Source: a virus
Length of the DNA: 64,000 bases
IMG/VR virus record: IMGVR_UViG_3300032676_000934
Span: 1 to 64,000 of that record
Strand: one strand, 5' to 3'
Position 1 is the first letter of the stretch; every line of letters begins with the position of its first letter. The notes under the pieces were generated by a model that made no database searches, was not told where the DNA came from, and saw only the letters and a program-made list of their open reading frames with translations. This document shows, one piece after another, positions 6,286 to 63,163 of the stretch. A program made the translations under genes and the position numbers.

Positions 6286-6923
6286 CAGCAGTTGATCAAG
6301 ATCTTGGAGGCCACGTGCTGGATCGTCATGCCGTCGACCACGTGGCTAGATCCGCCTTTCTGGCTCTGCACGGCCATGCCGTTGACCTGATGGGCGCTCT
6401 GCTCGCGAACGGCGGTCACAGCCGTGTGGCTCACATCGTGGACCGTCTGCTTGTCGTCGGTGCGCGTCTGCGTTGAATTGGGGGAAACGCCCTTGAGCTT
6501 GTTCGGGTCGGAGCGGACGCCAGGGACGAAGACCGCGTCCCACATGGCATGCTGACGGGTATCGCCCGGCGATTGAACGCCGCCGTTCTGATGCCAGCCA
6601 TCTATGCCGAGGGCGGCCGGGACGCTGAAGCCCTCGTTGCCCTGCTTGAGGCCGTAGGTCGTCGTGATGCCGCCGCCGCCCATGAAGTGGACCGGCACGT
6701 CGGGAATGACCGGCAGCGTCACTTCGACCGTCGTGCCGTCCGGCTTCCGTTGGATGGCCTTGGTAGTTGGCTGCAGCTTCGCAGTGTGGCCGTCCTGGCT
6801 GTCCTCGGCCAGCATGACCGGGCCAGACTTGGGCAGGCGCGAGAATACGGCGTCAACAACGGTTTCCAGCAGCTCGGTCTGGTCCTCGAACCGCTCGCGG
6901 ATGTCGATTGCGCCGTTCGCCAT
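6285..6923 (-). CDS. baseplate spike protein, Gp138/gpV-like
   Basis: 212 residues. The N-terminal half (residues 30-130: LPKSGPVMLAEDSQDGHTAKLQPTTKA, then LPVIPDVPVHFMGGGGITTTYGLKQGNEGFSVPA) fits the OB-fold of membrane-puncturing spike proteins (Gp138 N-terminal family). The tail end has repetitive HDVSHTAVTAV / HVVDGMTIQHVAS strands like a beta-helical needle. ATG at 6923 is chosen over the frame start at 6944 because AAAGGGG lies 6 bases before it. Confidence 0.8.
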   Translation of the reverse strand: MANGAIDIRERFEDQTELLETVVDAVFSRLPKSGPVMLAEDSQDGHTAKLQPTTKAIQRKPDGTTVEVTLPVIPDVPVHFMGGGGITTTYGLKQGNEGFSVPAALGIDGWHQNGGVQSPGDTRQHAMWDAVFVPGVRSDPNKLKGVSPNSTQTRTDDKQTVHDVSHTAVTAVREQSAHQVNGMAVQSQKGGSSHVVDGMTIQHVASKILINC

Positions 6924-6967
6924 TTGATCCCCTTTGAAAGCCACCGGCTCGGGATTAGCTTTAAGCG

Positions 6968-7330: not shown

Positions 7331-7675
7331 ATGCGCTACGCCCTCGCCGCCGCTATTTTCTCACTATCTGTTTCGGCCGTCGCTGCGGGGCCCATGCCGC
7401 GGGTGCCAAAGGGCGCGTTCTACTACGAGGCCCGCAACAGTCTGACCGCGCTTGGCTGGCAGCCCGCACCGCTCCCCGCCGACAAGCGCGGTTGCAGTGA
7501 TGGTCGGGAAGATGTGTGCGATCGATATCCCGAAACCGCGGCTTGCTCTGGGACAGGGCTCGCGCTCTGCACCTTCTTATGGAAGCGAGGCGAAACCCTT
7601 GCCGAGGTGACAACCTACGGCGAGGAGGTCGACATGATCCGCGTCCGATCTGTGCAATGTCGGGCCGGTTGTTAG
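7331..7675 (+). CDS. small exported Cys-rich protein (moron)
   Basis: 114 residues. A signal peptide (MRYALAAAIFSLSVSAVAAG) shares its MRY-ALAA start with the previous gene. The mature part has six Cys (residues about 57-114), suggesting disulfides in the periplasm. It follows the previous gene by 9 bases, so the two form a small rightward operon, and its stop overlaps the end of the convergent tape-measure gene. Function unknown. Confidence 0.7.
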   Translation: MRYALAAAIFSLSVSAVAAGPMPRVPKGAFYYEARNSLTALGWQPAPLPADKRGCSDGREDVCDRYPETAACSGTGLALCTFLWKRGETLAEVTTYGEEVDMIRVRSVQCRAGC

Positions 7676-18175: not shown

Positions 18176-19219
18176 TCAGACCCCCAGCATCTGCGACATG
18201 GCGATTGGAGCCTTGACGACGACGCCGAACGTGCCCGAGGTCTTCTTCTGCGCGTAGGACGAGAGCATGCGGACGATCTGGTGATCGCGCAGCTTCTCGT
18301 TGAAGGCGCAGGTCGCGACCTGGGTGCCGTTGAAGCGATCCGCCCAGAGCTGGACGACGTTGCCCGAGGCCGTGGCGTGCCGCGGATCCGAGACGACCTT
18401 CAGGTTCGGGAAGTTCTTCTGCAGCAGGTCCATGACGCTGATGCCGAACTGGTTGGTCGCCATCAGGGCCACGTCGCTCTGCGGCGGCATGACCAGCGTC
18501 ATCGTGTCGGTCTTCTGGATCACGCCAGACGTGCGGCCGACGAGGTCGAGCACCATCGCCTGGAGATCGTTGAAGATCTCGTTAGCGGTGGCGACCACGA
18601 CGCCGTTGTTGACCCACTTGGTGCCGCCCGCAGCCTTCGTGGACGGGGTGAGAGCAGCCGGCAGGCTCGGCTCGTTCAGCATGCCGTAGCAGGCCATGCC
18701 GGCGACGCCGTAGTGGTAGGTGTAGTCCTGGAACTTCGCCAGCGTGGCGGCGGCCGAGGTCTGCACCTCACCGACCCAGTTCAGGCGAGCGAGGCCAGCG
18801 CGGTCCACCTGCAGATCGCCGTACTGCACGACGGTCTGGAACAGGTAGGACGACCGGTTCACCCAGTCGAGGTTGGCGTCGGACCGGCCGTTGTTGTTCC
18901 AATCGCCGTAGGGAGCGACCTCGCCGGTGTTCTCCACGACCATGAAGGTCGCGGTCTCGGTGGTCCAGTCGCCGGTCTTGACCTCGCCCAGGATCTCCGC
19001 GCCCTTGTTCGGGGTCTGGACGATGCGGACGACCTCAGGGTCGACGTAGGCGGCGAGCCAGCCCGGGATACCCGAGTTGGCGGTCGTCACCAGCGTGGGC
19101 TGGGCGTCGAGCGCGAGGTTGAAATTGCGCTTGTACTCACTCGGCAGGAACTCAGCGTCCTGCGCGAGATGAATGCCCCAATCTGCTTCGAGAGTGGGGC
19201 GAACGGATGCGAGCTTCAT
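18176..19219 (-). CDS. major capsid protein, DUF2184-like
   Basis: 347 residues. The ATG at 19219 is chosen because AAAGGGGG lies upstream and because LASVRPTLEADWGIHLAQDAEFLPSEYKR is a normal capsid N-terminus. Conserved DUF2184 features are IPGWLAAYVDPEVVRIVQTPNKGAEILGEVKTGDWTTETATF, MACYGMLNEPSLPAALTPS and the C-terminal GTFGVVVKAPIAMSQMLGV. It makes the head shell. Confidence 0.9.
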   Translation of the reverse strand: MKLASVRPTLEADWGIHLAQDAEFLPSEYKRNFNLALDAQPTLVTTANSGIPGWLAAYVDPEVVRIVQTPNKGAEILGEVKTGDWTTETATFMVVENTGEVAPYGDWNNNGRSDANLDWVNRSSYLFQTVVQYGDLQVDRAGLARLNWVGEVQTSAAATLAKFQDYTYHYGVAGMACYGMLNEPSLPAALTPSTKAAGGTKWVNNGVVVATANEIFNDLQAMVLDLVGRTSGVIQKTDTMTLVMPPQSDVALMATNQFGISVMDLLQKNFPNLKVVSDPRHATASGNVVQLWADRFNGTQVATCAFNEKLRDHQIVRMLSSYAQKKTSGTFGVVVKAPIAMSQMLGV

Positions 19220-19233
19220 TCTATTCGCCCCCT

Positions 19234-19752
19234 TTAGCCGATGGGAAGATGAGAGATTTTGACGAGTTCGCCGGCCGCGCCGGAACCGCCATCGGTCCAG
19301 CCGACGCAGTACCACTTGGTCTCGACGGAACCGGCCACGGTAGCACCGGTGGCTGCGAACGACACCGAGCCGTTCGTGGTGTTGGCGAACGCCTTCATGC
19401 CGATGGAGGCAGTGCCAGCACCCGCGTTCTTCGCGTAGTAGCAGCCGCCGGTCATCAGCGAGCCGACGCGCTGGCCGGCCTGGATCGTCATCCCGAACTC
19501 GGCCGGGAAGACGTTGATGCTAGCCTGCAGCTCACGATGGACGAAACCGGACGGAGCACCCGTCCCGGTCGAGGCCACCTTGTTCTGAGCCGCGTTCACC
19601 CAGGCGAAGCAGCCGATGGTCACGCCGCCCGTATCGGCGACGAGAATGCCGCCGGAGGTGACGAAGCTGAACGACGGATCCGCGCTGGCGAAGTCGCCGG
19701 GGACGCCGGGCGCCTGGACGACGTTGACGGAGGTCTGAAAGGTCGTGGGCAT
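19234..19752 (-). CDS. capsid cement/decoration protein (Gp24-like)
   Basis: 172 residues: TTFQTSVNVVQAPGVPGDFASADPSFSFV, FAWVNAAQNKVASTGTGAPSGFVHRELQASINVFPAEFGMTIQAGQRVGSLMTGGCYYAKNAG. The PGVPGDFAS start and GFVHRELQA..........I..G..V..L..G signatures are those of structural cement proteins encoded just upstream of DUF2184 capsids. It stabilises the shell. Confidence 0.85.
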   Translation of the reverse strand: MPTTFQTSVNVVQAPGVPGDFASADPSFSFVTSGGILVADTGGVTIGCFAWVNAAQNKVASTGTGAPSGFVHRELQASINVFPAEFGMTIQAGQRVGSLMTGGCYYAKNAGAGTASIGMKAFANTTNGSVSFAATGATVAGSVETKWYCVGWTDGGSGAAGELVKISHLPIG

Positions 19753-22060: not shown

Positions 22061-22900
22061 TTACAAGTCCTCAATGATCGGCTCAGGGTAGCATCGGCAG
22101 TTGAATATTGCCCCTGCGTGCGCTCTGTAGCCTGGGTCGCACTCTGGCGGCTCGCTCCACTTGATCACTTTGCCGTTTAGAGCTTTGTGCGTTACTCGGA
22201 CATCATTATCGGCAGCCGTCCTCCAGATGTAGGAAGTCGATCCGATATGCTCAGCCCTCGCTTGAGTGAGGAGGGTGGACGTTCTCGAAACCTCCGTGCG
22301 GGCGATGGTATTCGCGCGCCCGAGGCTGACCTCGCCGGTCTTCATGATCTCGGCCGAGATCTGATCGGCACGCCAGCCCTTGGTGATGCCCTCGCGGGTC
22401 ATCGCGTGGACGCGCTCAGCGGCTTCGCGCGGCAGGCTGGTGATGAGCCGAACCTGCTCATCCTGCCGTGCCCGCATCACCTGTCCGATGGGCGCCTCGG
22501 CGATTTCCTTGCGGAGCGCTGAGCCCATCTGTTCGGCGACGCGGAACCACGAGCGCTCGTCTCGGGCGGCGACCTCGGCCACCATGCGATTGCCGACCGC
22601 TTCGGCCCACGGCTTCAGCGTCTCGGCGTATCGCTCCAGAGCCCGTCCGATGGTCCCCGTCAACGACAGATTTTCGAGGTCGAAGCCCCGGACCAGATCT
22701 CCCACATGTCGGGCCACGGACCGAAGCCTGCGCCCGTACTCCCGCTCGATCTTCTTCGCCCGGATGAACGCCGAGCGAACCGACTGCCCTGCCCTGTCCT
22801 GCGCGAGAACCGGGAGGCTACTCCGCGGCCTGAGGCAACTCGGGCAATAGATCGTCGGAGCGATCCGGTAGCGGCTCGGCGCCGTCTGGCTGGTCTGCAT
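22061..22900 (-). CDS. head morphogenesis protein (SPP1 gp7/Mu F-like)
   Basis: 279 residues. The C-terminal 130 show the family signature: ITKGWRADQISAEIMKTGEVSLGRANTIARTEVSRTSTLLTQARAEHIG, YIWRTAADNDVRVTHKALNGKVIKWSEPPECDPGYRAHAGAIFNCRCYPEPI. The start overlaps the portal gene by 83 bases; no better in-frame start is seen. A minor capsid protein carried with the portal. Confidence 0.85.
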   Translation of the reverse strand: MQTSQTAPSRYRIAPTIYCPSCLRPRSSLPVLAQDRAGQSVRSAFIRAKKIEREYGRRLRSVARHVGDLVRGFDLENLSLTGTIGRALERYAETLKPWAEAVGNRMVAEVAARDERSWFRVAEQMGSALRKEIAEAPIGQVMRARQDEQVRLITSLPREAAERVHAMTREGITKGWRADQISAEIMKTGEVSLGRANTIARTEVSRTSTLLTQARAEHIGSTSYIWRTAADNDVRVTHKALNGKVIKWSEPPECDPGYRAHAGAIFNCRCYPEPIIEDL

Positions 22901-24413
22901 CCGGGTCCGCTTCCGGCGCGGGCGCCTCGGTCGAGGCCGCGTCGATGTCCTCGTCGGTGATCTGCGTGAACACGCCCGTGGTGTCGGCCATCTCGCGCAG
23001 TTCGCGCATCACGACGTCGCTCGGCAGGGCCGGCTCAGCGGTCATGATGGCCTGTGTCCGCTTCAGAGCGACGTCGGCCTTCTCGGCCTCGCTCATCTGC
23101 CACAGCGGCTCGAACTCGAACCCGATGTCCTCGTCGATGGCGCCGAACTCGGAGAGCTGCACGAAGCCCAGAACCCGCTTCAGGTTCTCGCCGAACAGCT
23201 TCTCCTGATAGGCATGGATGAAGTCGTAGAAGACCCGGACCTCGCCATCCGAGGATGCGTTCAGGCCCGAGGGCGTGACGCCGAGCAGCTTGACGAGCGG
23301 GATGCCGCAGACGCTGGCGATCTGCTCCTGAGCCTGGGCCTGGAGCTTGTCGAGTGTCCCAAGCGGCGTCGAGACATTGAAGAACTCCTCGCCCGTGTTC
23401 AGGGCCATGAACCCGCGGTTGTCCCGCATGTTCACGAACAGATCTACGCGGTTCTGCAGGTCAGCCGTGCCGCCTGCTGCCAACATGTTGGCAAGGTCCA
23501 TGCCCTTGACGCCGCTCACAGAGAACGCGGCGATCAAGTCCGACACATCCTCACGGGTTCGCAGCCAGTTTGCGACATAGGGCTGGGCCATCTGCGTCAT
23601 GGCCAGGCCGCCGAACGCGTAGGCCGACTTGAGCAGGTCCGGCACCTCGCGACCGACGAAGGTCAGCAGCCGGCTCCGGTGGATCGCCTTGCCCTGCACG
23701 TACCACGTCTGAGGAACGTACCAGTCCGCATCCAGCGGGTTGATCGTGTTGTAGCTCTGCGGGTAGGCCCAGACGGCCTCGACCGGCTGCAGGCGCAGGA
23801 GCTTGCCCTTGCGAACCTTCTGACGACTGGCGGCGTCCCGACCGTTGCCGATCGGCGCCTTCAGTTCGTCTCCGACTTGATCGCCATCCAGGGCGATGTA
23901 GAGGTGCCCGCGACCGAAGAACCCGTCCCCCTCCGCAACCCTGCGGAAGGCGTCTCGCACGTTCAGGCGTTCAAGGGCATCGGTCAGCAGGTCGACGCGT
24001 TCCTGGGTCTGCTCATCGCCCTTGCGGTTGACAAGACGGATCCACTTCCGCGTCATCTCGGTGGCGATCGTTTCCACGATGCGCCGGTACTCGGGACGCT
24101 GGGCCATCGCCGACAGCGTCGGGTAGCCGAGGAAGTGCTGGCCCTCCAGCGCGGCGTCGATCTGGCCGGCGGCGAGGACCTGAGCGGCCCAAGCCCCCGT
24201 GGCCGAGAGCGCATCATCCTGGGCGAGGCTGACAGCCGGCGTGGCGCTGCGCGGGAACTCCGGCAGGGCGAACGGGTCGACCCTCGCAGGCTTCGGCTTA
24301 GCGAACAGCGCCACATGCTCCCGCGTCACCTTGAGTGGAGCGATGGTCTCCTGCTTCTGTGTCGGGGCGGCGTTGACCCGGGCTCGGGCTCGCCGCTGAG
24401 CGCGCTTGGTCAT
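22818..24413 (-). CDS. portal protein, DUF1073-like
   Basis: 531 residues: QDDALSATGAWAAQVLAAGQIDAALEGQHFLGYPTLSAMAQRPEYRRIVETIATEMTRKWI, FRRVAEGDGFFGRGHLYIAL, RLLTFVGREVPDLLKSAYAFGGLAMTQMAQPYVANWLR, ASVCGIPLVKLLGVTPSGLNASSDGEVRVFYDFI. These are hallmarks of the DUF1073 portal family. It overlaps the terminase stop by 4 bases (ATGA). Confidence 0.9.
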   Translation of the reverse strand: MTKRAQRRARARVNAAPTQKQETIAPLKVTREHVALFAKPKPARVDPFALPEFPRSATPAVSLAQDDALSATGAWAAQVLAAGQIDAALEGQHFLGYPTLSAMAQRPEYRRIVETIATEMTRKWIRLVNRKGDEQTQERVDLLTDALERLNVRDAFRRVAEGDGFFGRGHLYIALDGDQVGDELKAPIGNGRDAASRQKVRKGKLLRLQPVEAVWAYPQSYNTINPLDADWYVPQTWYVQGKAIHRSRLLTFVGREVPDLLKSAYAFGGLAMTQMAQPYVANWLRTREDVSDLIAAFSVSGVKGMDLANMLAAGGTADLQNRVDLFVNMRDNRGFMALNTGEEFFNVSTPLGTLDKLQAQAQEQIASVCGIPLVKLLGVTPSGLNASSDGEVRVFYDFIHAYQEKLFGENLKRVLGFVQLSEFGAIDEDIGFEFEPLWQMSEAEKADVALKRTQAIMTAEPALPSDVVMRELREMADTTGVFTQITDEDIDAASTEAPAPEADPDADQPDGAEPLPDRSDDLLPELPQAAE

Positions 24414-25651
24414 CCGTAGCGGCGACGGCCCAGACCGAAGGCGGCTGCCTGCTCGGCCGAGACGATGAGGGGCTTGGCACCCCGCAGAAGCTCCACGGCA
24501 TACCGCAGGGCGTCGATGACGTGGTTCTTCTTGTCCGCTAGCACGGGCAGCACCTCGCCTGTGAGCGGGTCGGTCTTGTAGGCGTATAGGGTCAGCTCAT
24601 CGATGGTGTGCCGGCAGTTCGGATGCACCACGATGTCGTAGGACTTCAGGAACTCGATCCCGTCCTCTACCGACCCCTGCCCTTTCGTGGCCGGCACCAG
24701 CTTGGGATAGCCATGCCGCTGTAGGTAGGAGATCGTCTCAGGCCGAGCGCTGTCGGCTCGGATCGGCCACTTGCGGGCCTGACCATCGTCCAGCGTATCG
24801 AACAGGGCCGGCGTCCGGTCGATCTCGCAGCCGACCTTGTAAACCTCGCGGTCGACGTAGAGCGTTCGCCCTTCAGTGAAGCACCGGACCAGCGTGGTCG
24901 GGTCGACGCTGAAGCCCCAGTCCGCGCCGTAGTAGAACCGGGCATCAGTCGGGGTGTCGAACGCCTCAACCCGCCAGTTGCGGAAGACGCGGGCCTCGCT
25001 GTTACGCTGGTAGCCACCCAGCCAGATGTGGGCGTACTTGTCAGCGTCGCGCCGCTGGTCGTAGTCCTTTTCCTCGACCAGTTCGGCCGGCAGCCACGGG
25101 TTGTCCGACCAGTTGGCCTCGACCACGATGCTGTTCGGAACGCGGGTCTCGCCGCGGAGCAGCGTATCAACCGGGTCCGTGGCCTTCGACGGGTTCCATG
25201 AGAACCACAGCTCCGAGCCCGGCATGCGGATCGTGGGACGAAGCAGATCCAGCGAGCGCTGCGACAGCGACTGCGCCTCTTCCACCCACGCGACCCTGAA
25301 CCCCTCCAGCGACTTGATGCTCTCCGCTGTGTGGTTCTGCATGCCCTGGAATACGATCAGGCCGCCGTTGTCGACCTCGATCCTGGTGTCCAGCACGCGG
25401 AAGCGCGAAGCCACGCCGAGACGGTTGATCTTGTCCTCAAGGAGCCGCTTGACCGACTGCTCCAGCGACTTCTGGATTTCACGAACGCAGACCGCCCGGG
25501 TCGGCTGGATCAAGCACTCCTCAATCAGCATCTCGCCGAAGAAGTGCGACTTGCCGGAGCCTCGACCGCCGTGCGCGCCCTTGTAGCGAGCCGGCTGCAG
25601 GAGCGGCAGGAAGACCTCAGGTGTCTCGATCTGGAGGACGGACGATGACAC
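24410..25651 (-). CDS. terL: terminase large subunit (PBSX/Terminase_3 type)
   Basis: 413 residues. Walker A GGRGSGKS at 28-35, Walker B plus catalytic Glu AWVEEA at 121-126, coupling motif WFSWNPS at 149-155. The nuclease half has YGADWGFSVDPT (acidic Asp244), ADSARPE (Asp300) and the late NHVIDALRYAV. This is the DNA-packaging motor. It overlaps the small-subunit-like gene by 35 bases. Confidence 0.93.
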   Translation of the reverse strand: MSSSVLQIETPEVFLPLLQPARYKGAHGGRGSGKSHFFGEMLIEECLIQPTRAVCVREIQKSLEQSVKRLLEDKINRLGVASRFRVLDTRIEVDNGGLIVFQGMQNHTAESIKSLEGFRVAWVEEAQSLSQRSLDLLRPTIRMPGSELWFSWNPSKATDPVDTLLRGETRVPNSIVVEANWSDNPWLPAELVEEKDYDQRRDADKYAHIWLGGYQRNSEARVFRNWRVEAFDTPTDARFYYGADWGFSVDPTTLVRCFTEGRTLYVDREVYKVGCEIDRTPALFDTLDDGQARKWPIRADSARPETISYLQRHGYPKLVPATKGQGSVEDGIEFLKSYDIVVHPNCRHTIDELTLYAYKTDPLTGEVLPVLADKKNHVIDALRYAVELLRGAKPLIVSAEQAAAFGLGRRRYG

Positions 25652-27293: not shown

Positions 27294-27634
27294 CGACTGA
27301 TCACCAGAATTGGCATGTCAGTTGCCGTCACGACGGCGTCATCTCGCTCATCAAGCGGCATGAAATCGTCTTCGTGGAACGCCTGCTCCTGATCGGGGCC
27401 GTTCGTGGTCAGCCGAGGCTCGTTGCGGATTTCCTCAAAGATCAGCCCAACGATGCCGGGCGCCTCAGTCCAAGGCTTGCCCCCAAGTTCCGAGGACCCC
27501 ATAACGATATCGCGGATCGTGTAGATACCACCGGTTACCGGCACATGCTCGGGGCAAAGCTCCGGCGGGATATCGGGAAACCACACAGCCTCGGCGGGCT
27601 TCGTGCAGACGACGCGCATGCCGATCTCGAACAT
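27290..27634 (-). CDS. unknown phage protein
   Basis: 114 residues: MFEIGMRVVCTKPAEAVWFP, then PVTGGIYTIRDIVMGSSELGGKPWTEAPGIVGLIFEEIRN and a carboxy-terminal FHEDDFMPLDERDDA. The pattern G..V.C.K.....P....GG.YTIR.I..........GLIFEEI.N....D...AF....F.PL is a conserved hypothetical family in alphaproteobacterial phages. It overlaps its neighbour by one base. Confidence 0.7.
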   Translation of the reverse strand: MFEIGMRVVCTKPAEAVWFPDIPPELCPEHVPVTGGIYTIRDIVMGSSELGGKPWTEAPGIVGLIFEEIRNEPRLTTNGPDQEQAFHEDDFMPLDERDDAVVTATDMPILVISR

Positions 27635-27909
27635 CAGGCGGCTCCGCTCGTGATGGCGTCCATCGCGGCCTTTAGCTCATCGACTCTGTCGGAAAGCTGC
27701 TGGTTCTCGCGGGCGTAGCTGTCGCAGGCGCGCTCGGCGCTTCGGAGGTGCATCGCGATTGCCGCATCCAATCGCTTACGGGCTTCACTGGCGGCGTTCG
27801 CGGCCTCGGATGAGGCTTGGGTGCCAATTCCAAGCTTGCCCTCTCTCAGGGCTCGCAAATGGAAAATGTCGATTGCCGCTGCGATGTCGGCCGGGATGGT
27901 CTCGGGCAT
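27634..27909 (-). CDS. coiled-coil protein, first gene after late promoter
   Basis: 91 residues, helical throughout with a heptad-like stretch ERACDSYARENQQLSDRVDELKAAMD at 58-84. It is the first gene downstream of the promoter at 28079-28106, after a leader of about 160 bases. Function unknown. Confidence 0.65.
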   Translation of the reverse strand: MPETIPADIAAAIDIFHLRALREGKLGIGTQASSEAANAASEARKRLDAAIAMHLRSAERACDSYARENQQLSDRVDELKAAMDAITSGAA

Positions 27910-28078
27910 GGCGAGGTCCGGCGAAGGCTAGCGGAATTTGGTGGCAATGCGGGCGGGCTACTCGCCACGGGTCATCTGAGGAGACCAAAGCGAGCCCGAC
28001 CGAGGGCGGCGGGGTATCCCCTCATGGCCCTATGCGCGGAAGGCACTGCCTTTTGGCCCGCACAACGTCGTGGCGAGA
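27910..28078 (-). other. transcribed leader between late promoter and first late gene
   Basis: No gene seen on either strand. On the minus strand, 20-32 bases after the expected start, lies AAGGCAGTGCCTT (28040-28052), which repeats the core of the promoter-proximal palindrome. Further down, GGCGAGTAGCCC (27955-27966) loosely resembles the RfaH/ops element GGCGGTAGC, with one extra base. Either could load the phage NusG-like factor. This is inference. Confidence 0.4.
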
Positions 28079-28106
28079 ATTATAGAAGCGCCAATCGATA
28101 TGTCAA
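28079..28106 (-). promoter_or_regulatory. late promoter, near-consensus sigma70
   Basis: On the minus strand: TTGACA (28106-28101), 16 bases, TATAAT (28084-28079). Both hexamers are perfect consensus. It points into the operon running from 27909 to the structural genes and begins 27 bases downstream of the NusG-like gene's stop. Confidence 0.8.
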
Positions 28107-28109
28107 GCA

Positions 28110-28130
28110 TTGATAGGCACTGTCTATCAA
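28110..28130. promoter_or_regulatory. operator palindrome upstream of late promoter
   Basis: TTGATAG-N7-CTATCAA, a perfect 7-bp inverted repeat, lies 3 bases upstream of the -35 hexamer and 2 bases from the NusG-like stop. Its centre shares GGCACTG(T/C)CT with 28040-28052. The position suits an activator or a silencing repressor; the binding protein is unknown. Confidence 0.6.
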
Positions 28131-28132
28131 AG

Positions 28133-28969
28133 TTAGGCTCGGCGAAGGGCTGCCGGCGCCTTGTGCATCGGGCGATCAAGGTTCTCGACCGTTTCCAACG
28201 ACACCTCGACCAGCGCCATGCCGCCGAAGACCGAGGTCAGGATCCGGAAGCGCCCTCGCCCGTCGTTGTCGTTGTCGGCCGTGCCGGTAGCGCCTGCGAA
28301 GGGGCCTTCGGTGATCTGGATCCGGTCGCCCTTCGCGACGGCTGGCAGGGCTGCCAGACGCTGAGCCTCGGCAGTGCGTGCCTCTCGGAAGGCGATCAGG
28401 CTCTGGCGCTTGCGCTCGTCAAACCAGCCCTCGCGCTCCTCGTCAGCCATGGGGGCGATGCCGCCGAGCGTGCCGTTCGCCGTCGTGTAGCGGATCGGCA
28501 TCGGGACGGGGTAGCCGTTGTTGCCGAGGCAGGACAGGACGCCGATCGGCGACGCCGGCTGGTGCCGAGGCTTGATCGTCGGGCCCCAGGCATCAGGCAG
28601 GACAGGGTAGTCTGCGCCTGCCGCGTCCGTCCGCCATTCGGGGTGCGGCAGGTGCGCGAAGAGGTAACCTCTGAACAGGGGCCGCTGCAGCTCGGTCAGG
28701 TACAGGTCCCTGCCCTTTCGACGCCGCTCCCAATAGGTCTCGGTCGGCACGTAGCTCGGGATGCCGGCCTCGCTGAGCCCATCCTGGCAGCGGTACTCGC
28801 CCTGCGGTACGGTGATGAGGCAGTACCAGCCCTTGCCGGCCTCCTTCTCGATCACGGGCGCTGTGCGACGCTCGTCGTGCTCAAGCGGGATCTCGTTGGC
28901 CTTGGCCTTCGGCTGGTTGTCGTTGTCCGGCTTGGAGCCGAGGTGCTTGCCGTACAGTCGGGCGCCCAT
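28133..28969 (-). CDS. NusG-like antitermination factor in the position of lambda Q
   Basis: 278 residues. NGN domain at about 45-125: KGWYCLITVPQGEYRCQDGLSEAGIPSYVPTETYWERRRKGRDLY, then RPLFRGYLFAHL. A middle insertion at 130-195, then a KOW domain at about 215-265 (AVAKGDRIQITEGPFAGATGTADN, FRILTSVFGGMALVEVSLETVE). ATG at 28969 has GGAG upstream; longer frames lack support. It is the last gene of the replication operon and immediately precedes the late promoter, so late-gene antitermination is likely. Confidence 0.85.
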   Translation of the reverse strand: MGARLYGKHLGSKPDNDNQPKAKANEIPLEHDERRTAPVIEKEAGKGWYCLITVPQGEYRCQDGLSEAGIPSYVPTETYWERRRKGRDLYLTELQRPLFRGYLFAHLPHPEWRTDAAGADYPVLPDAWGPTIKPRHQPASPIGVLSCLGNNGYPVPMPIRYTTANGTLGGIAPMADEEREGWFDERKRQSLIAFREARTAEAQRLAALPAVAKGDRIQITEGPFAGATGTADNDNDGRGRFRILTSVFGGMALVEVSLETVENLDRPMHKAPAALRRA

Positions 28970-29402: not shown

Positions 29403-30100
29403 GCTCTCACTCCCTCGCTCTCTTGAGATCTCGCTTTGGCTTCGGCTTCTCTTAGGGTGGAGAGAGCTTGAAGACGGTCAGCGTGGGCGGTGCCGGCTTC
29501 GCGGGTTCGGTTGCCGGCGCTGGCCTCGGACAGCTCGGCCACGATCTCGGCAAAGCGGCGGGATACCTCGGCCCGCTCCTCATCGGTCGGCGGGGTGTAG
29601 ATCTCGGCATCCAGCACCGCGTTGATCTTCGCGCGCTCGTACTGCGCTTCTGCGATGAGGCGGCGGCAGACAGCGGCGATCTCGCCGGGCTTGGGGGCAT
29701 GGATCCCCTCCCCCTGATCGGCCGCCAGAAACTGCGCACAGGCCGCCTCTACGGCCCAGGCGGGGTACTTCGTCAGCGTGACAAGGAACGCCTTCTTTTG
29801 AAGCTTCCGCGTCTCATCATCTACGTTCGGAACTGCCATTACCGACCGCAGCATCCCAACGGCTCGGACGATGACCGCCGCGTCACAGGGCTGAAGCCGC
29901 TCATCGAGGTGTTGGCGCCGATCGACCAAGACCGCACGCTGCTCGGCGGACGGCTCATCGGCCGCCGACAAGGCGCAGCGCCGGAACTCGCCAGGGATCG
30001 GCTCCAGCTTGTTGTGCAGCCGGCTCGTCAAATCTGCGACCGCCCGGCTCACCGGAACGATCCCACGGGCCTGCGTCACGGCTGAAAGGGCGGTTGTCAT
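29399..30100 (-). CDS. putative replication accessory/helicase-loader-like protein
   Basis: 233 residues from an ATG at 30100 with GGAGG six bases upstream. This start forces a 146-base overlap with the replication gene before it. All-helical: ALSAADEPSAEQRAVLVDRRQHLDERL, AVIVRAVGMLRSVMAVPNVDDETRKLQKKAFLVTLTKYPAWAVEAACAQFLAAD, GIHAPKPGEIAAVCRRLIAEAQYERAKINAVLDAE. Position after an O-like gene suggests a P-like loader; sequence alone does not establish it. Confidence 0.65.
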   Translation of the reverse strand: MTTALSAVTQARGIVPVSRAVADLTSRLHNKLEPIPGEFRRCALSAADEPSAEQRAVLVDRRQHLDERLQPCDAAVIVRAVGMLRSVMAVPNVDDETRKLQKKAFLVTLTKYPAWAVEAACAQFLAADQGEGIHAPKPGEIAAVCRRLIAEAQYERAKINAVLDAEIYTPPTDEERAEVSRRFAEIVAELSEASAGNRTREAGTAHADRLQALSTLREAEAKARSQESEGVRA

Positions 30101-30884
30101 AGCGGCCTCCGGTGAGTTCGGCGTTCGCTTCGATGGCCTCGGCGGCCCAGAAATCGGCGGGCTTTGGCGGCGGGCGTTGCTTCTGGCGAGCATCACGTCC
30201 CGAGAACTTCACGTCGTTCCGGCACCACGTGCGCCACGCCGCCAGCCAGTCGGCCATGATGGTGCCCTTGCCGGCGTGGTAATCGATGAACTGCGGCCAG
30301 ATCACCGCCGCGCGGCTGGGCTCAACGCCGGCCTTGCGAGCCGCTGCGGTCTCATCCTCTGCCAGCAGCCAAGTCGGCTTGATCTTCGTCCGCCTCGGGC
30401 TCGGCGCCGCAGGCGCGCTCTCCGAACGAAGTGAGGAGATATCTTGAATGAGTTCAGTGCCTTTAATGTCTTCTTCTTTGCGTCGCGGGTGCGTCGTAGG
30501 TGCGTCGGAGGTGCGTCGCGTGTGCGTCGGCACGTCGGCTTCGGGTAGGCTAACCCGTTGAAAACGGTCGTATTTTAGGATCGTTATGTGCGTCGCTTTT
30601 TTGTCAGCGGCCGCACAGATAATTTCACGCGAAATCAGGCGTCCGAGGTAACGGCGAACGCGAGCCTCAGACCACGACCATTTCTCTGCGAGGAAGCGGG
30701 TGGAGAAGGCGCACTGGCCGCGCGCAAGGTCGATGGCGCCGCTCCCGACACGGATGCGCATCGGCTTCCAAGCGGCCTGCCCAACGAGCCAAATGAACGC
30801 CTCTCGCTCGCTGAACTCGCCATCGGCAAAGTCAGGATCCGACCAGATGCCGCGGTCTACCGCGAAGACGCCGCGCTCGCTCAT
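29955..30884 (-). CDS. replication initiation protein, winged-helix O-like
   Basis: 309 residues from ATG at 30884. The N-terminal domain SERGVFAVDRGIWSDPDFADGEFSEREAFIWLVGQAAWKPMRIRVG, FSTRFLAEKWSWSEARVRRYLGRLISREII is a phage-replication winged helix. After a basic linker, residues 190-245 (TWLLAEDETAAARKAGVEPSRAAVIWPQFIDYHAGKGTIMADWLAAWRTWCRND) match the DnaD/O-like C-terminal domain. It would bind the origin and recruit host replisome parts. Confidence 0.83.
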   Translation of the reverse strand: MSERGVFAVDRGIWSDPDFADGEFSEREAFIWLVGQAAWKPMRIRVGSGAIDLARGQCAFSTRFLAEKWSWSEARVRRYLGRLISREIICAAADKKATHITILKYDRFQRVSLPEADVPTHTRRTSDAPTTHPRRKEEDIKGTELIQDISSLRSESAPAAPSPRRTKIKPTWLLAEDETAAARKAGVEPSRAAVIWPQFIDYHAGKGTIMADWLAAWRTWCRNDVKFSGRDARQKQRPPPKPADFWAAEAIEANAELTGGRYDNRPFSRDAGPWDRSGEPGGRRFDEPAAQQAGADPWRVPALRLVGGR

Positions 30885-31156
30885 GATGTCGCCTTCGACC
30901 AGCGCTTGCAGGCGGGGGACCGGCCGAGCACATCGCTGCAGTGGCCTCCGGTCCAGTAGGACTTCATCAGCTCGCACTTGAGATACGTGCGGGCTAGGCG
31001 ATGCCGGTAGAGATGATCGCAGGAGCCGCAGGTCTCGCCAGCAGGCCCAGTACCGGGCAGCGCAGCGTAGCCCTTAGCAGTGCCGACGCCGCGCATCTTC
31101 TTGCGCTCGGCCGGCGTCAGCGCGCGATCCTGAATGAAAGCGAGCATGTCGGTCAT
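30881..31156 (-). CDS. Cys-rich conserved phage protein
   Basis: 91 residues: LTPAERKKMRGVGTAKGYAALPGTGPAGETCGSCDHLYRHRLARTYLKCELMKSYWTGG, then CKRW. CGSCDH...K.YLKC.L.....T.G....I.. and a final AC.RW form a probable zinc site common near phage replication genes. Overlaps both neighbours by 4 bases. Function unknown. Confidence 0.78.
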   Translation of the reverse strand: MTDMLAFIQDRALTPAERKKMRGVGTAKGYAALPGTGPAGETCGSCDHLYRHRLARTYLKCELMKSYWTGGHCSDVLGRSPACKRWSKATS

Positions 31157-50929: not shown

Positions 50930-52400
50930 CGGTGCGGAATACGCAGATCGCTTGCTTTCGGCCTTGAGAACGCGATGTCGGCGGCGTTGCCCGAACCGCG
51001 CCCAGCCGCCTTCGGACCTAAAATGGGGCATTCCGCCTCGATTTTAGGTTCAGGTGAGACAGCGCAATGTACTATGTCGGCCTCGACCTCGGTCTCAAGA
51101 AGACCGCCGTGTGTATCGTTGACGAAGACGATAAAATTATTCGCAGGGGCGATATTGATAGTGAGCCAGAAGCCATCGCGCTCTGGCTGTACGAGCAGAA
51201 GCTGACCTACAAACGCGTCGGCCTGGAGTCGGGCATGATGCATGAGTATATTTATTTCGGCCTCGTGAAGGCCGGGTATCCGGCCATCGTCATCAACTCG
51301 GCCGACTCGCGGAACTTCCTCAAGAACAAGATCAACAAGACGGATAAGTCTGACGCGCATGGCATCGCCCGCATGATGCGGATGAAGCACTACCGCGAGG
51401 TCTACGTGAAGACGGAGGAGAGCAGGCGCCAGAGGGCGCTGCTCGCATCGCGCAAGTTGGCCATCGCCAAGATGCGGGACACTGAGACCCACATCCGCGG
51501 GATCATTCGTCACTTCGGGTTCAAGCTTGGCAAGGTCACGAGAAAGCAGTTCGAACCTCGCGTCCGTGAACTCATCGAGCATGATGCCATGCTAATGGCG
51601 ACCGTAGAGCCGATGCTGGCCTTGGCTCGGGCGGCGCGGGAACAGGCGAACACCCTGACCCGGCAGGTGTTGGCCATCGTCAGAGCCTGTCCCGTCTGTC
51701 AGATCCTGATCACGTGCCCTGGGGTCGGTCCCATTGTGGCGCTGATGTTCAAGACCACCATTGACCTGCCGACCCGGTTCCGGAACGCCAAGGCAGTCGG
51801 TGCGGCAGTGGGATTGACCCCGCGACGGTGGGAGTCAGGCGACACGAAGCGCATGGGCCGGATCTCCAAAATTGGAGACGAAGAGCTTCGCACCAGCCTA
51901 TTTGAAGGCGCCCAGGCGTTCCTGGCGATGAACAAGAGGCCGTGCTGGCTGCACACTTGGGCGCAGGAACTGAAGGAGAAGAAGGGGCACTACAAGGCGG
52001 TCATTGCGCTTGCCCGCAAGATCGCGATGGTCCTATACATTCTGTGGATCGAGATGCGGCCGTTCCGTTGGGACGATCAGCCCGTAGCTTGATCACGAGC
52101 TTCCGCCGTTGAGGCGGGAGGTGTCCGTCAAGGACCGAGGGGTTGGTTGGTTCCGGGTCTTACCTTGCAGGGGCATCCGCCTGCTGCGTCTAACAGATTG
52201 GAACACCAACTCGCGGATACCCATCTTGGAGCAGGTTCGCCCTGGCTCCGTAAGCAAGAGCGCAGTCCCTGACGTGATGACTACCTTCCTCAACTTCGAT
52301 CAGTTCGAAAGGCGGTAACGACGCAGATGCGTTGAACGAGATCCCCTCAAGGGGAGCACCTTCGGTGTGCCGTTAAATACGTTGGCCCGCGCGAGTGGGA
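50870..52400 (+). mobile_element. IS110-family insertion element (ends approximate)
   Basis: The transposase at 51067-52092 plus long non-coding flanks. IS110 elements have no clear terminal repeats, so the edges are guesses. The 5' flank (50930-51066, no gene) contains hairpin CGTG-TGCGAGC-CGCACG flanked by two GAATTTTC copies (50889-50920). The 3' flank (52093-52530, no gene) contains GCTTCCGCCGTTGAGGCGGG, AGATCCCCTCAAGGGGAGCA and CACCTTCGGTGTG hairpins. Either flank may encode the bridge RNA. Confidence 0.6.
51067..52092 (+). CDS. IS110-family DEDD transposase
   Basis: 341 residues. DEDD domain: YVGLDLGLKKT with Asp7, RVGLESG with Glu54, INKTDKSDAHGIARMM with Asp93 and Asp96. C-terminal Tnp_20 domain: ILITCPGVGPIVALMFKTTIDLPTRFRNAKAVGAAVGLTPRRWESGDTKRMGRISKIGDEELR, including the likely Ser nucleophile in GRISK. 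Full length, so the element may be active. The enzyme works with a bridge RNA. Confidence 0.92.
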   Translation: MYYVGLDLGLKKTAVCIVDEDDKIIRRGDIDSEPEAIALWLYEQKLTYKRVGLESGMMHEYIYFGLVKAGYPAIVINSADSRNFLKNKINKTDKSDAHGIARMMRMKHYREVYVKTEESRRQRALLASRKLAIAKMRDTETHIRGIIRHFGFKLGKVTRKQFEPRVRELIEHDAMLMATVEPMLALARAAREQANTLTRQVLAIVRACPVCQILITCPGVGPIVALMFKTTIDLPTRFRNAKAVGAAVGLTPRRWESGDTKRMGRISKIGDEELRTSLFEGAQAFLAMNKRPCWLHTWAQELKEKKGHYKAVIALARKIAMVLYILWIEMRPFRWDDQPVA

Positions 52401-61357: not shown

Positions 61358-63163
61358 TCATGTGTCGATGGCAACGATCGTATAAGTGATGTTCAGCACC
61401 CAATACATCGTCGTGGCGGCTACGCCTGTAATCTGCACACGGATGACGTTACTGGCGGTGTCCGCAATGATGTTGATGCCGGGCGTTGCTCCAAAATCAT
61501 TCTGGGGCGCGCCAAACTCTGTCGTACCGACCTGCGTGACGGCGCCGCCGTTTGGCCGGCGAAATGTCGCACGCGCAGACTGTCCAAATGCATTGGCGCC
61601 CAAACCGTTGGCTACAGCGGACACCTCAACGCGAGTTGAGCGTGAATTGCCGATTGTAATTGTGTAAACGTTACTAGTGTTTCCGTTGGTCGATTTGAGC
61701 GACGCTTGCGCTTCTACTTTCTCCGCGCCGGTAAACCCGGTCGCGAGGCCCTGCAAGCGCCGGATCTGCTGATCCGAGATGTAGCTGCGAGCGCTTAGTA
61801 CGCTCGGCGTCGAAGTGTTGCCGGCATAGACGTTGTTGAGAAAAGCGTTGCTGGTTTGGTTCGCGTCCAATTCGCGCATCGGCGTGTAGACGCCGGAGAA
61901 GGTGTTGTCCTGAACGATATTGCCAGAACTGTTGTAGGTCATACCGTTGAAGGTGCGCGCTTGGACTACGACGCCGTATTGCGTGCTCGGGCTGACGTAG
62001 ACAGCGGGATCGATGAACAGGCGGTTGTTCTTGACCAGCGCTCCGGATGTGCCTTCAAGCGAGATAAAGTTTCCCTGCAAATTGTAACCGGTATTACCGC
62101 TAATTTGGTCGAGCTGGGAAATTCTCGATGTGATTGCGGTGCCTGTGAGCCCTTCAAATCGATTATTCAGGAAAAGATTTCGGACCCCAGGCAGGTTAGA
62201 GGTATCGGCCTCGCCGGAGAAAAACCCGTTCTGCCCGCCGATGATTACATTGTCATGCCATGATACGCTTTGGTAAAGTCGCTTAGTTCCGCCCGCATTG
62301 GCGCAATTTATGAACGTGTTGCTATAGACTTCTCCGCGCCCGTTCGTTGTATCTCCATTTCCGAGACCGCTGATATATACTCCTTCGTCAGAGAAGCCCT
62401 CAAAGATATTATGATGGATCTTTACGGCGTCGCATGCGCCAAAGACTCCGCTATCTCCGCCAGCCGTCACATAGGAAGCGCCGGCATACAGGCGCAGATG
62501 ATCTACTTCGCAGTTGGAGCCGCCTGAGAAGTAGATGGCGTCATTGGCCTGCCCCGCCTGACTGTTCGGAGCGGCTGACACGTCGATCAAGCTCGCGCGC
62601 CCGGATCCAGTCAGGCGCACACGGGTGCAGTTATTGAATTGGAGGCACTTGCTCGCCAGCGTGGGAGCTTGTTTTACGGTCGCTCCCGCCAGCAGCTCGA
62701 TTATAAGGTCGGATAGCGCCGATGCTCCGACCGTCGTGCCGATCAGGTACACTCCTGCCGGGATCAGAACGTGTCGATTTGAGGACAGCGCTTTCTTGAA
62801 GGCAGGGCCGTCATCCGTGATACCGTCGCCCGTCGCGCCGAAATCCTTGACGCTCACTTTGTCAGCGGCTCGGTCAGCATGCGTACGGGCCGCCGTCCCG
62901 CCAGCCGCCGTTACGCTCAGCGCCGACGCGTCGCCGGTGGTGTTGCCGGTGCCGCCCTGCGCCACAGACAGCGCGGTGGTGAGTCCGGTGAGGCTGGTGA
63001 TGTCGGAGTTGGCACCGTTGGCGGCGGCGCCAAGGTTCGTGCGAGCAGCGGGGGCGTTACCCGCCCCTGTACCGCCGAACGCGACATCCACGAACTCGCC
63101 AGCCTGCGTATTGCGCTGGTTGCCGGTGGTCGTGTCGCGCGTGATCGGTGTGACGACGCCCAT
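61358..63163 (-). CDS. tailspike, pectate-lyase-type beta-helix depolymerase candidate
   Basis: 601 residues. An attachment region at 1-105 with GGTGA and GGTGNTTGDASALSV repeats; then DRAADKVSVKDFGATGDGITDDGPAFKKALSSNRHVLIPAGVYLIGT at about 100-150, the signature of pectate lyase superfamily beta-helix tailspikes. Parallel coils with NNRFEGL, NSSGNIVQDNTFSGV and HHNIFEGFSDEGVYISGL repeats occupy 180-470. The C-terminal 130 form a trimer or receptor domain. GC drops noticeably compared with neighbours, suggesting recent acquisition. Confidence 0.85.
   Translation of the reverse strand: MGVVTPITRDTTTGNQRNTQAGEFVDVAFGGTGAGNAPAARTNLGAAANGANSDITSLTGLTTALSVAQGGTGNTTGDASALSVTAAGGTAARTHADRAADKVSVKDFGATGDGITDDGPAFKKALSSNRHVLIPAGVYLIGTTVGASALSDLIIELLAGATVKQAPTLASKCLQFNNCTRVRLTGSGRASLIDVSAAPNSQAGQANDAIYFSGGSNCEVDHLRLYAGASYVTAGGDSGVFGACDAVKIHHNIFEGFSDEGVYISGLGNGDTTNGRGEVYSNTFINCANAGGTKRLYQSVSWHDNVIIGGQNGFFSGEADTSNLPGVRNLFLNNRFEGLTGTAITSRISQLDQISGNTGYNLQGNFISLEGTSGALVKNNRLFIDPAVYVSPSTQYGVVVQARTFNGMTYNSSGNIVQDNTFSGVYTPMRELDANQTSNAFLNNVYAGNTSTPSVLSARSYISDQQIRRLQGLATGFTGAEKVEAQASLKSTNGNTSNVYTITIGNSRSTRVEVSAVANGLGANAFGQSARATFRRPNGGAVTQVGTTEFGAPQNDFGATPGINIIADTASNVIRVQITGVAATTMYWVLNITYTIVAIDT

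Follow-up and report, generated by a model that had tools for sequence, protein, structure and literature searches.

The window considered here is a 64,000-base stretch comprising positions 1 to 64,000 of a 67,387-base virus record (IMG/VR IMGVR_UViG_3300032676_000934). It carries on its minus strand a NusG-family gene (28133 to 28969) that encodes a 278-aa protein, with an ATG at 28969 and a stop codon at 28133; this choice of start codon is supported by the proteins of close relatives, which align from the residues MGAR. It is flanked by replication genes on one side and by the late operon on the other. A replication protein resembling DnaD-type helicase loaders is encoded upstream (29955 to 30977, minus strand). 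Downstream, beyond a promoter and an untranslated leader, come a small ORF of 91 aa (27634 to 27909) and the late genes, all on the nusG (minus) strand, for the terminase large subunit (TerL; 24410 to 25651), the portal protein (22818 to 24413), head morphogenesis, a protease, the major head protein (18176 to 19315), the tail sheath, and the tape measure. Since a tail sheath is among these same-strand products, this is the late operon of a contractile-tailed phage, and it extends over roughly 25 kb. The position is thus that of Q in lambda, as had been proposed by an earlier reading of this DNA from its letters only (here, the sequence-only reading). Outside these regions, an IS110-family transposase is found at 51067 to 52092, in the right-hand phage region, and a pectate-lyase-like beta-helix protein, probably a tail spike, is encoded at 61358 to 63163.

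The gene product is a NusG paralogue

The NGN domain, at residues ~45 to 150, was recognized by Pfam (NusG, E = 7e-8), and the KOW domain, which follows an inserted linker at residues ~210 to 265, gave a weak Pfam match (0.063). The PHROG match of the protein was "transcription antiterminator." A profile built from the window clade and its relatives matched E. coli NusG structures (E = 1e-34) as well as LoaP-type and RfaH chains, and, since the same profile aligned across the C-terminal domain of NusG, a KOW domain is present. An AlphaFold model computed from nine sequences was poor (pLDDT of 44), and one computed from a 51-sequence alignment reached a pLDDT of 77; when the latter was used in a structure search, NusG was retrieved first. 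This model contains a KOW-like barrel that matches 1nz9 and 2jvv, so that the KOW domain is predicted as a beta barrel and not as an alpha hairpin, a prediction that may miss a second fold. The window protein had no match to the Q protein family, its Pfam and PHROG matches being of the NusG type only, and a genome scan with it returned a sole match, a KOW-only protein in an Omnitrophota MAG. Pfam, PHROG, profile, and model therefore agree that the gene encodes a NusG-family (NGN plus KOW) paralogue, as first suggested from the sequence.

A consensus promoter and a palindrome lie behind nusG

A -35 box, TTGACA (28101 to 28106, minus strand), lies 26 nt beyond the nusG stop codon, and across a 16-bp spacer from it stands a -10 box, TATAAT (28079 to 28084, minus strand). 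Each box agrees with the consensus at 6/6 positions, 12/12 in all, and the promoter faces the late genes. When up to two mismatches were allowed, TTGACA-16-TATAAT had a single match in the 64 kb, with 0.47 expected at that tolerance. The sequence-only reading had described just such a perfect promoter facing the late operon and had placed it right behind the gene, which holds, after a gap of 27 bases, which is one too many. Its figure of about 160 untranslated bases is borne out, as the next ORF starts at 27909, 169 nt past the -10 box and ~162 nt past the nominal start site. Not mentioned in that reading was a palindrome, TTGATAG-N7-CTATCAA (28110 to 28130, assigned to neither strand), which directly precedes the -35 box and is a probable protein-binding site.

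Promoter, palindrome, and leader are conserved in related loci

A protein search of the collections yielded only nine related loci, L002 to L010. Identity to the window NusG protein was 87 to 92% for L003 to L007, 62% for L008, and 47% for L009 and L010, and L002 had the same sequence. BLASTN with the intergenic region detected the promoter and leader in L004 to L008, and with a covariance model the leader was located in L003 as well (E = 0.0016), at a distance of 1.6 kb past nusG. The region between nusG and the promoter is occupied in the relatives by inserts, mostly with ORFs, of ~0.2 kb (L005), 0.5 kb (L004), 0.6 kb (L008), 0.9 kb (L007), and 1.9 kb (L006). The sequence-only reading had suggested a search for the same gene-promoter pair in related phages, and the promoter and leader are kept there; the tight spacing is not, and with 0.2 to 1.9 kb between nusG and a conserved promoter and leader in L003 to L008, it is not essential. 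The nusG gene of L008 (121 to 921) is chimeric, with an N-terminal half nearly identical to that of L003 and a C-terminal half like that of L009 and L010. The L008 leader is also divergent, a hint that the C-terminal half and the leader may change together.

The -35 and -10 boxes were matched at 12/12 positions in L004, L005, L006, and L008 and at 9/12 in L003 and L007, which shows that the promoter is under selection. In L003 the promoter reads TTGACG-17-TATATA and stands, with the palindrome, before the leader. In both L009 and L010 the stop codon of nusG is overlapped by CTTGAC, behind which stands a promoter-like site of lesser strength (8/12). The spacer (28085 to 28100 in the window) is conserved in L004, L005, L006, and L008 (approximately GATWGRYGCY), beyond the needs of a plain promoter.

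The palindrome core, ATAG-N7-CTAT, is invariant in the window and L003 to L008, and in L003 a flanking G-C pair is replaced by A-T through changes in both arms. No record has more than one copy of the exact 17-mer (the window record, G003, G004, and G005 have one each), and the only copy in the window record is the one beside the late promoter. Its sequence suggests that the palindrome is bound by a dimeric regulator; a general repressor operator is unlikely, given the single copy in each of these four records. Together, these comparisons indicate that promoter, palindrome, and leader form one conserved unit that is separable from nusG.

The window leader is a covarying RNA

The untranslated leader (27910 to 28078, minus strand; model R2) contains three hairpins, which were found by RNAalifold on a five-sequence MAFFT alignment (A2). 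Hairpin 1 (28034 to 28063) consists of two stacked stems with two-sided changes in the relatives, hairpin 2 (28005 to 28029), the GGGCCATGAGGGGATACCCCGCCGCC region, is nearly invariant, and hairpin 3 (27952 to 28001) is long and shows many two-sided changes in the relatives; all are on the minus strand. After the hairpins comes a conserved stretch, GCATTGCCACCAAA (27937 to 27950, minus strand), with a consensus of approximately RTATTGYCCCYAAA (ATTGYCCC); RTATTGYCCCYAAA or a near variant was recognizable in all nine related leaders.

On A2, 96.8% of the cells pair, versus 43 to 55% after sliding of the partners, and two-sided changes are seen at seven pairs, in a test that favors this structure because the structure was derived from A2 itself. 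When L003 and L008 were added through the model, 20 of the 38 pairs changed on both sides in the resulting seven-sequence alignment (A6), a count reached in 0/500 shuffles, although A6 was fitted to the covariance model and leans to it. The stability of the window leader did not stand out from that of shuffled sequence (z = 0.11), and so the case for the fold rests on covariation and not on energy. The covariation indicates that the window leader is a structured, folded RNA, and the importance that the sequence-only reading had attached to the leader gains weight from this conserved fold, of which that reading had no account. Neither the window leader nor the leaders of the relatives matched a described Rfam family. 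The only Rfam match of note was a tRNA-Thr (TGT) gene in L009 (2872 to 2947), directly after the leader and within the late transcript.

No U-tract terminator was recognized in the window leader, and terminator-like sites around it occurred at chance level. In eight relatives a GC hairpin closes the leader after the conserved stretch, and similarity stops beyond it; this hairpin was rejected as an intrinsic terminator because it has no U-tract. It is missing from the window, which, compared with L004, lacks ~160 nt from the interval that separates the conserved stretch from the gene that comes next; the DNA around the start of that gene, the 91-aa ORF, again matches L004. A long-range pairing of GGCAGTGC with GCATTGCC, favored by an eight-sequence fold, can form in the close clade only and shows no covariation. 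Inspection of the leader alignments revealed no UNCG-type loops in the covarying hairpins. In L010 the leader end TTTCGCCGCGATGNCGGC (6900 to 6930) is apparently repeated ~460 nt further on (about 7370 to 7400), which may reflect an interruption or a duplication of the leader.

A second NusG-linked RNA element occurs in other alphaproteobacterial prophages

Searching with the proteins of the relatives (tblastn) turned up published phages of Mesorhizobium, Sinorhizobium, Rhizobium, Agrobacterium, and Bradyrhizobium, as well as the "Nostoc" phage Nsp-JY10, in all of which a NusG-like gene follows the replication region and precedes the terminase. Behind this gene, six published phages carry an element, R1, which is made up of a two-part stem (CCYTGA/TCARGG and GYCTC/GAGRC) followed by CAGTGC-GNRA or UACA-GCTATG. 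Where the sequence of these six phages extends far enough, R1 is followed by a terminator, for example GGCGGCCGAAAGGTCGCCTTTTT, and a terminator is clear in the cassettes of phi2LM21 and phi3LM21 from Sinorhizobium sp. LM21. R1 was then sought with a DNA pattern of its 3' half, which holds no protein information, and was found in at least 120 IMG/VR stretches, of which 80 were fetched. The loci with R1 are L045 to L124, L024, L026, L027, L040, L041, and L042. All 75 fetched loci with enough sequence had a NusG-like ORF 87 to 150 nt upstream of R1 on the same strand, and TerL lay 0.8 to 2.3 kb downstream in 33/33 testable loci. The stems of R1 covary (61 cells with two-sided changes versus 20 in shuffles), and a terminator-like hairpin directly followed 69 of 76 distinct copies, compared with 166/710 control stretches (23%). 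Like the window leader, R1 had no described family in Rfam.

R1 itself had no significant match in the window, even with filters off, and the two leaders are thus unlike RNAs in the same place. A CAGTGC...GCYATG motif seemingly shared by the window and R1 leaders was dropped, as covariation puts its bases in different pairs. No clear promoter adjoining the element was found in the R1 group; promoter-like matches between nusG and R1 exceeded the control, and this excess probably comes from the YTGACA arm of R1 itself. In Bradyrhizobium phage ppBjS10J-1 (L025, 8529 to 9270), the NusG-like gene is followed by more than 500 unannotated nt that contain a long GC hairpin and then ACTTTTATTT and that have no R1 element.

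Discussion

A NusG paralogue is constantly linked to a structured leader that stands before late genes, and the simplest account of this link is that nascent RNA recruits the paralogue. We consider it probable that the window paralogue is loaded via the leader RNA and brings about processive antitermination of the late operon. The phage paralogue would be made from the early or replication operon, RNA polymerase would start at the strong late promoter and transcribe the leader, and the leader would fold into its three hairpins and a conserved single-stranded stretch. The paralogue, through KOW and/or NGN, would recognize this nascent RNA and replace host NusG on the elongation complex, and the polymerase so loaded would resist pausing and intrinsic and/or Rho-dependent termination over the ~25-kb operon. 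The termination sites in the window may perhaps be Rho-dependent ones within this long operon, and a separate regulator at the palindrome would probably silence or time the late promoter. We infer leader binding, antitermination, dependence of the late genes on the paralogue, and the role of the palindrome. The broad proposal that the late genes are under NusG-type antitermination, already put forward in the sequence-only reading, is supported by conservation across the relatives and by the R1 module, whose parallel to the window is an analogy between different RNAs.

The closest precedent is LoaP, a NusG paralogue that depends on an RNA hairpin in the leader and lets transcription pass an intrinsic leader terminator both in vivo and in vitro. 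LoaP has been termed the sole bacterial NusG-like protein for which binding to a specific RNA element is known (PMC12691694). As with LoaP of Bacillus velezensis and its dfn and mln leader hairpins, there is a NusG paralogue, a structured leader RNA of the target operon, and a long operon, and the R1 group also has an intrinsic leader terminator after its RNA element. Unlike the antibiotic clusters controlled by LoaP, the targets here would be phage late genes, of alphaproteobacterial phages judging by the relatives. The window leader is also larger than that of LoaP, with three hairpins and with neither a UNCG hairpin nor a recognized terminator, and RNA binding by the window protein is putative.

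The arrangement recalls lambda Q and pR'-tR', in that the gene sits after the replication genes and ahead of the late operon, the late promoter comes right after it, and the leader has a length similar to that of pR', which yields short transcripts (6S RNA, ~194 nt). Q is an unrelated protein that acts at a DNA site between the -35 and -10 boxes, whereas the window protein has the fold of NusG and the window leader is a conserved RNA. It is nonetheless conceivable, though we regard it as improbable, that the paralogue is loaded by DNA, either like RfaH at a paused complex through nontemplate ops DNA or like Q, AlpA, and GafZ at a site between the boxes, with the leader doing another job. The spacer that is partly conserved in the window, L004, L005, L006, and L008 is a possible DNA recognition site, ops DNA is recognized by RfaH (PMC7819879), and GafZ of the Caulobacter GTA uses, like Q and AlpA, a putative element between -35 and -10 (PMC11150451). 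With RfaH and the plasmid-borne RfaH-type paralogues, the window protein shares the NusG fold of a specialized, operon-specific elongation factor; it may differ in its KOW, which is predicted as a beta barrel and not as the alpha hairpin of autoinhibited RfaH, and it differs in that the conservation of the leader is structural. The GafYZ system controls an alphaproteobacterial, phage-derived late cluster by antitermination, but GafZ acts together with host NusG and has not itself been described as a paralogue of NusG. Against loading by DNA, conservation runs through the full length of the leader and has the pattern of a conserved RNA structure, and in the R1 group the link between NusG-like gene and RNA element is without exception even though no clear promoter adjoins. 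Since the leader is a folded RNA, recruitment by RNA, the LoaP principle, is better supported than binding of duplex DNA as by Q or of ops as by RfaH.

Somewhat less probable still is a leader that works in cis, as the put RNA of HK022 does, or that is bound by host Nus factors, in which case the phage NusG would act elsewhere or only displace host NusG. The window leader is structured and promoter proximal, as is put, a phage leader RNA with hairpins, and put, as a nascent RNA element, counteracts pausing and termination (PMC9378689). However, put acts without a phage protein, and an RNA of that type would need no linked protein gene, whereas leader and nusG co-occur in all relatives and R1 always adjoins a NusG-like gene. 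We give even less credence to a role of the leader in translation or as a small regulatory RNA (for example, a short transcript like 6S or an mRNA-stability element) that is unrelated to the paralogue; short transcripts from lambda pR' do exist, a GC hairpin closes the leader in several relatives, and no Rfam family matches, but this would leave unexplained the constant link to NusG of two unlike RNA families before the terminase. Finally, we regard it as very improbable that the paralogue serves host takeover in general (by anti-Rho action or uncoupling) next to a promoter that is simply strong and controlled at the palindrome. A consensus promoter with a dedicated palindrome found once per record would suit this reading, but the conserved RNA fold would have no role, and it would go unexplained that nusG is strictly placed ahead of the late operon in other phages.

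The module of NusG paralogue and structured leader appears, from comparative evidence, to be a real and widespread variant of NusG-paralogue antitermination that is likely new, with the leader RNA as its likely target. Phage NusG genes are already annotated "antitermination," and no paper on a NusG-RNA-leader module was found in searches of the open-access literature. On balance, we favor the broader proposal that many temperate alphaproteobacterial phages place their late genes under their own NusG paralogues guided by leader RNAs of at least two unlike families. These would form a class distinct from Q, N, put, and RfaH, with the window as a divergent branch that carries its promoter, operator, and RNA as one portable cassette. 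If this is true, RNA-guided NusG factors would be common rather than unique, as the two covarying RNA families suggest, phages of rhizobia and their relatives would have a late-gene switch of this kind, and short promoter-leader-terminator cassettes would become available for studying how NusG paralogues reach one operon.
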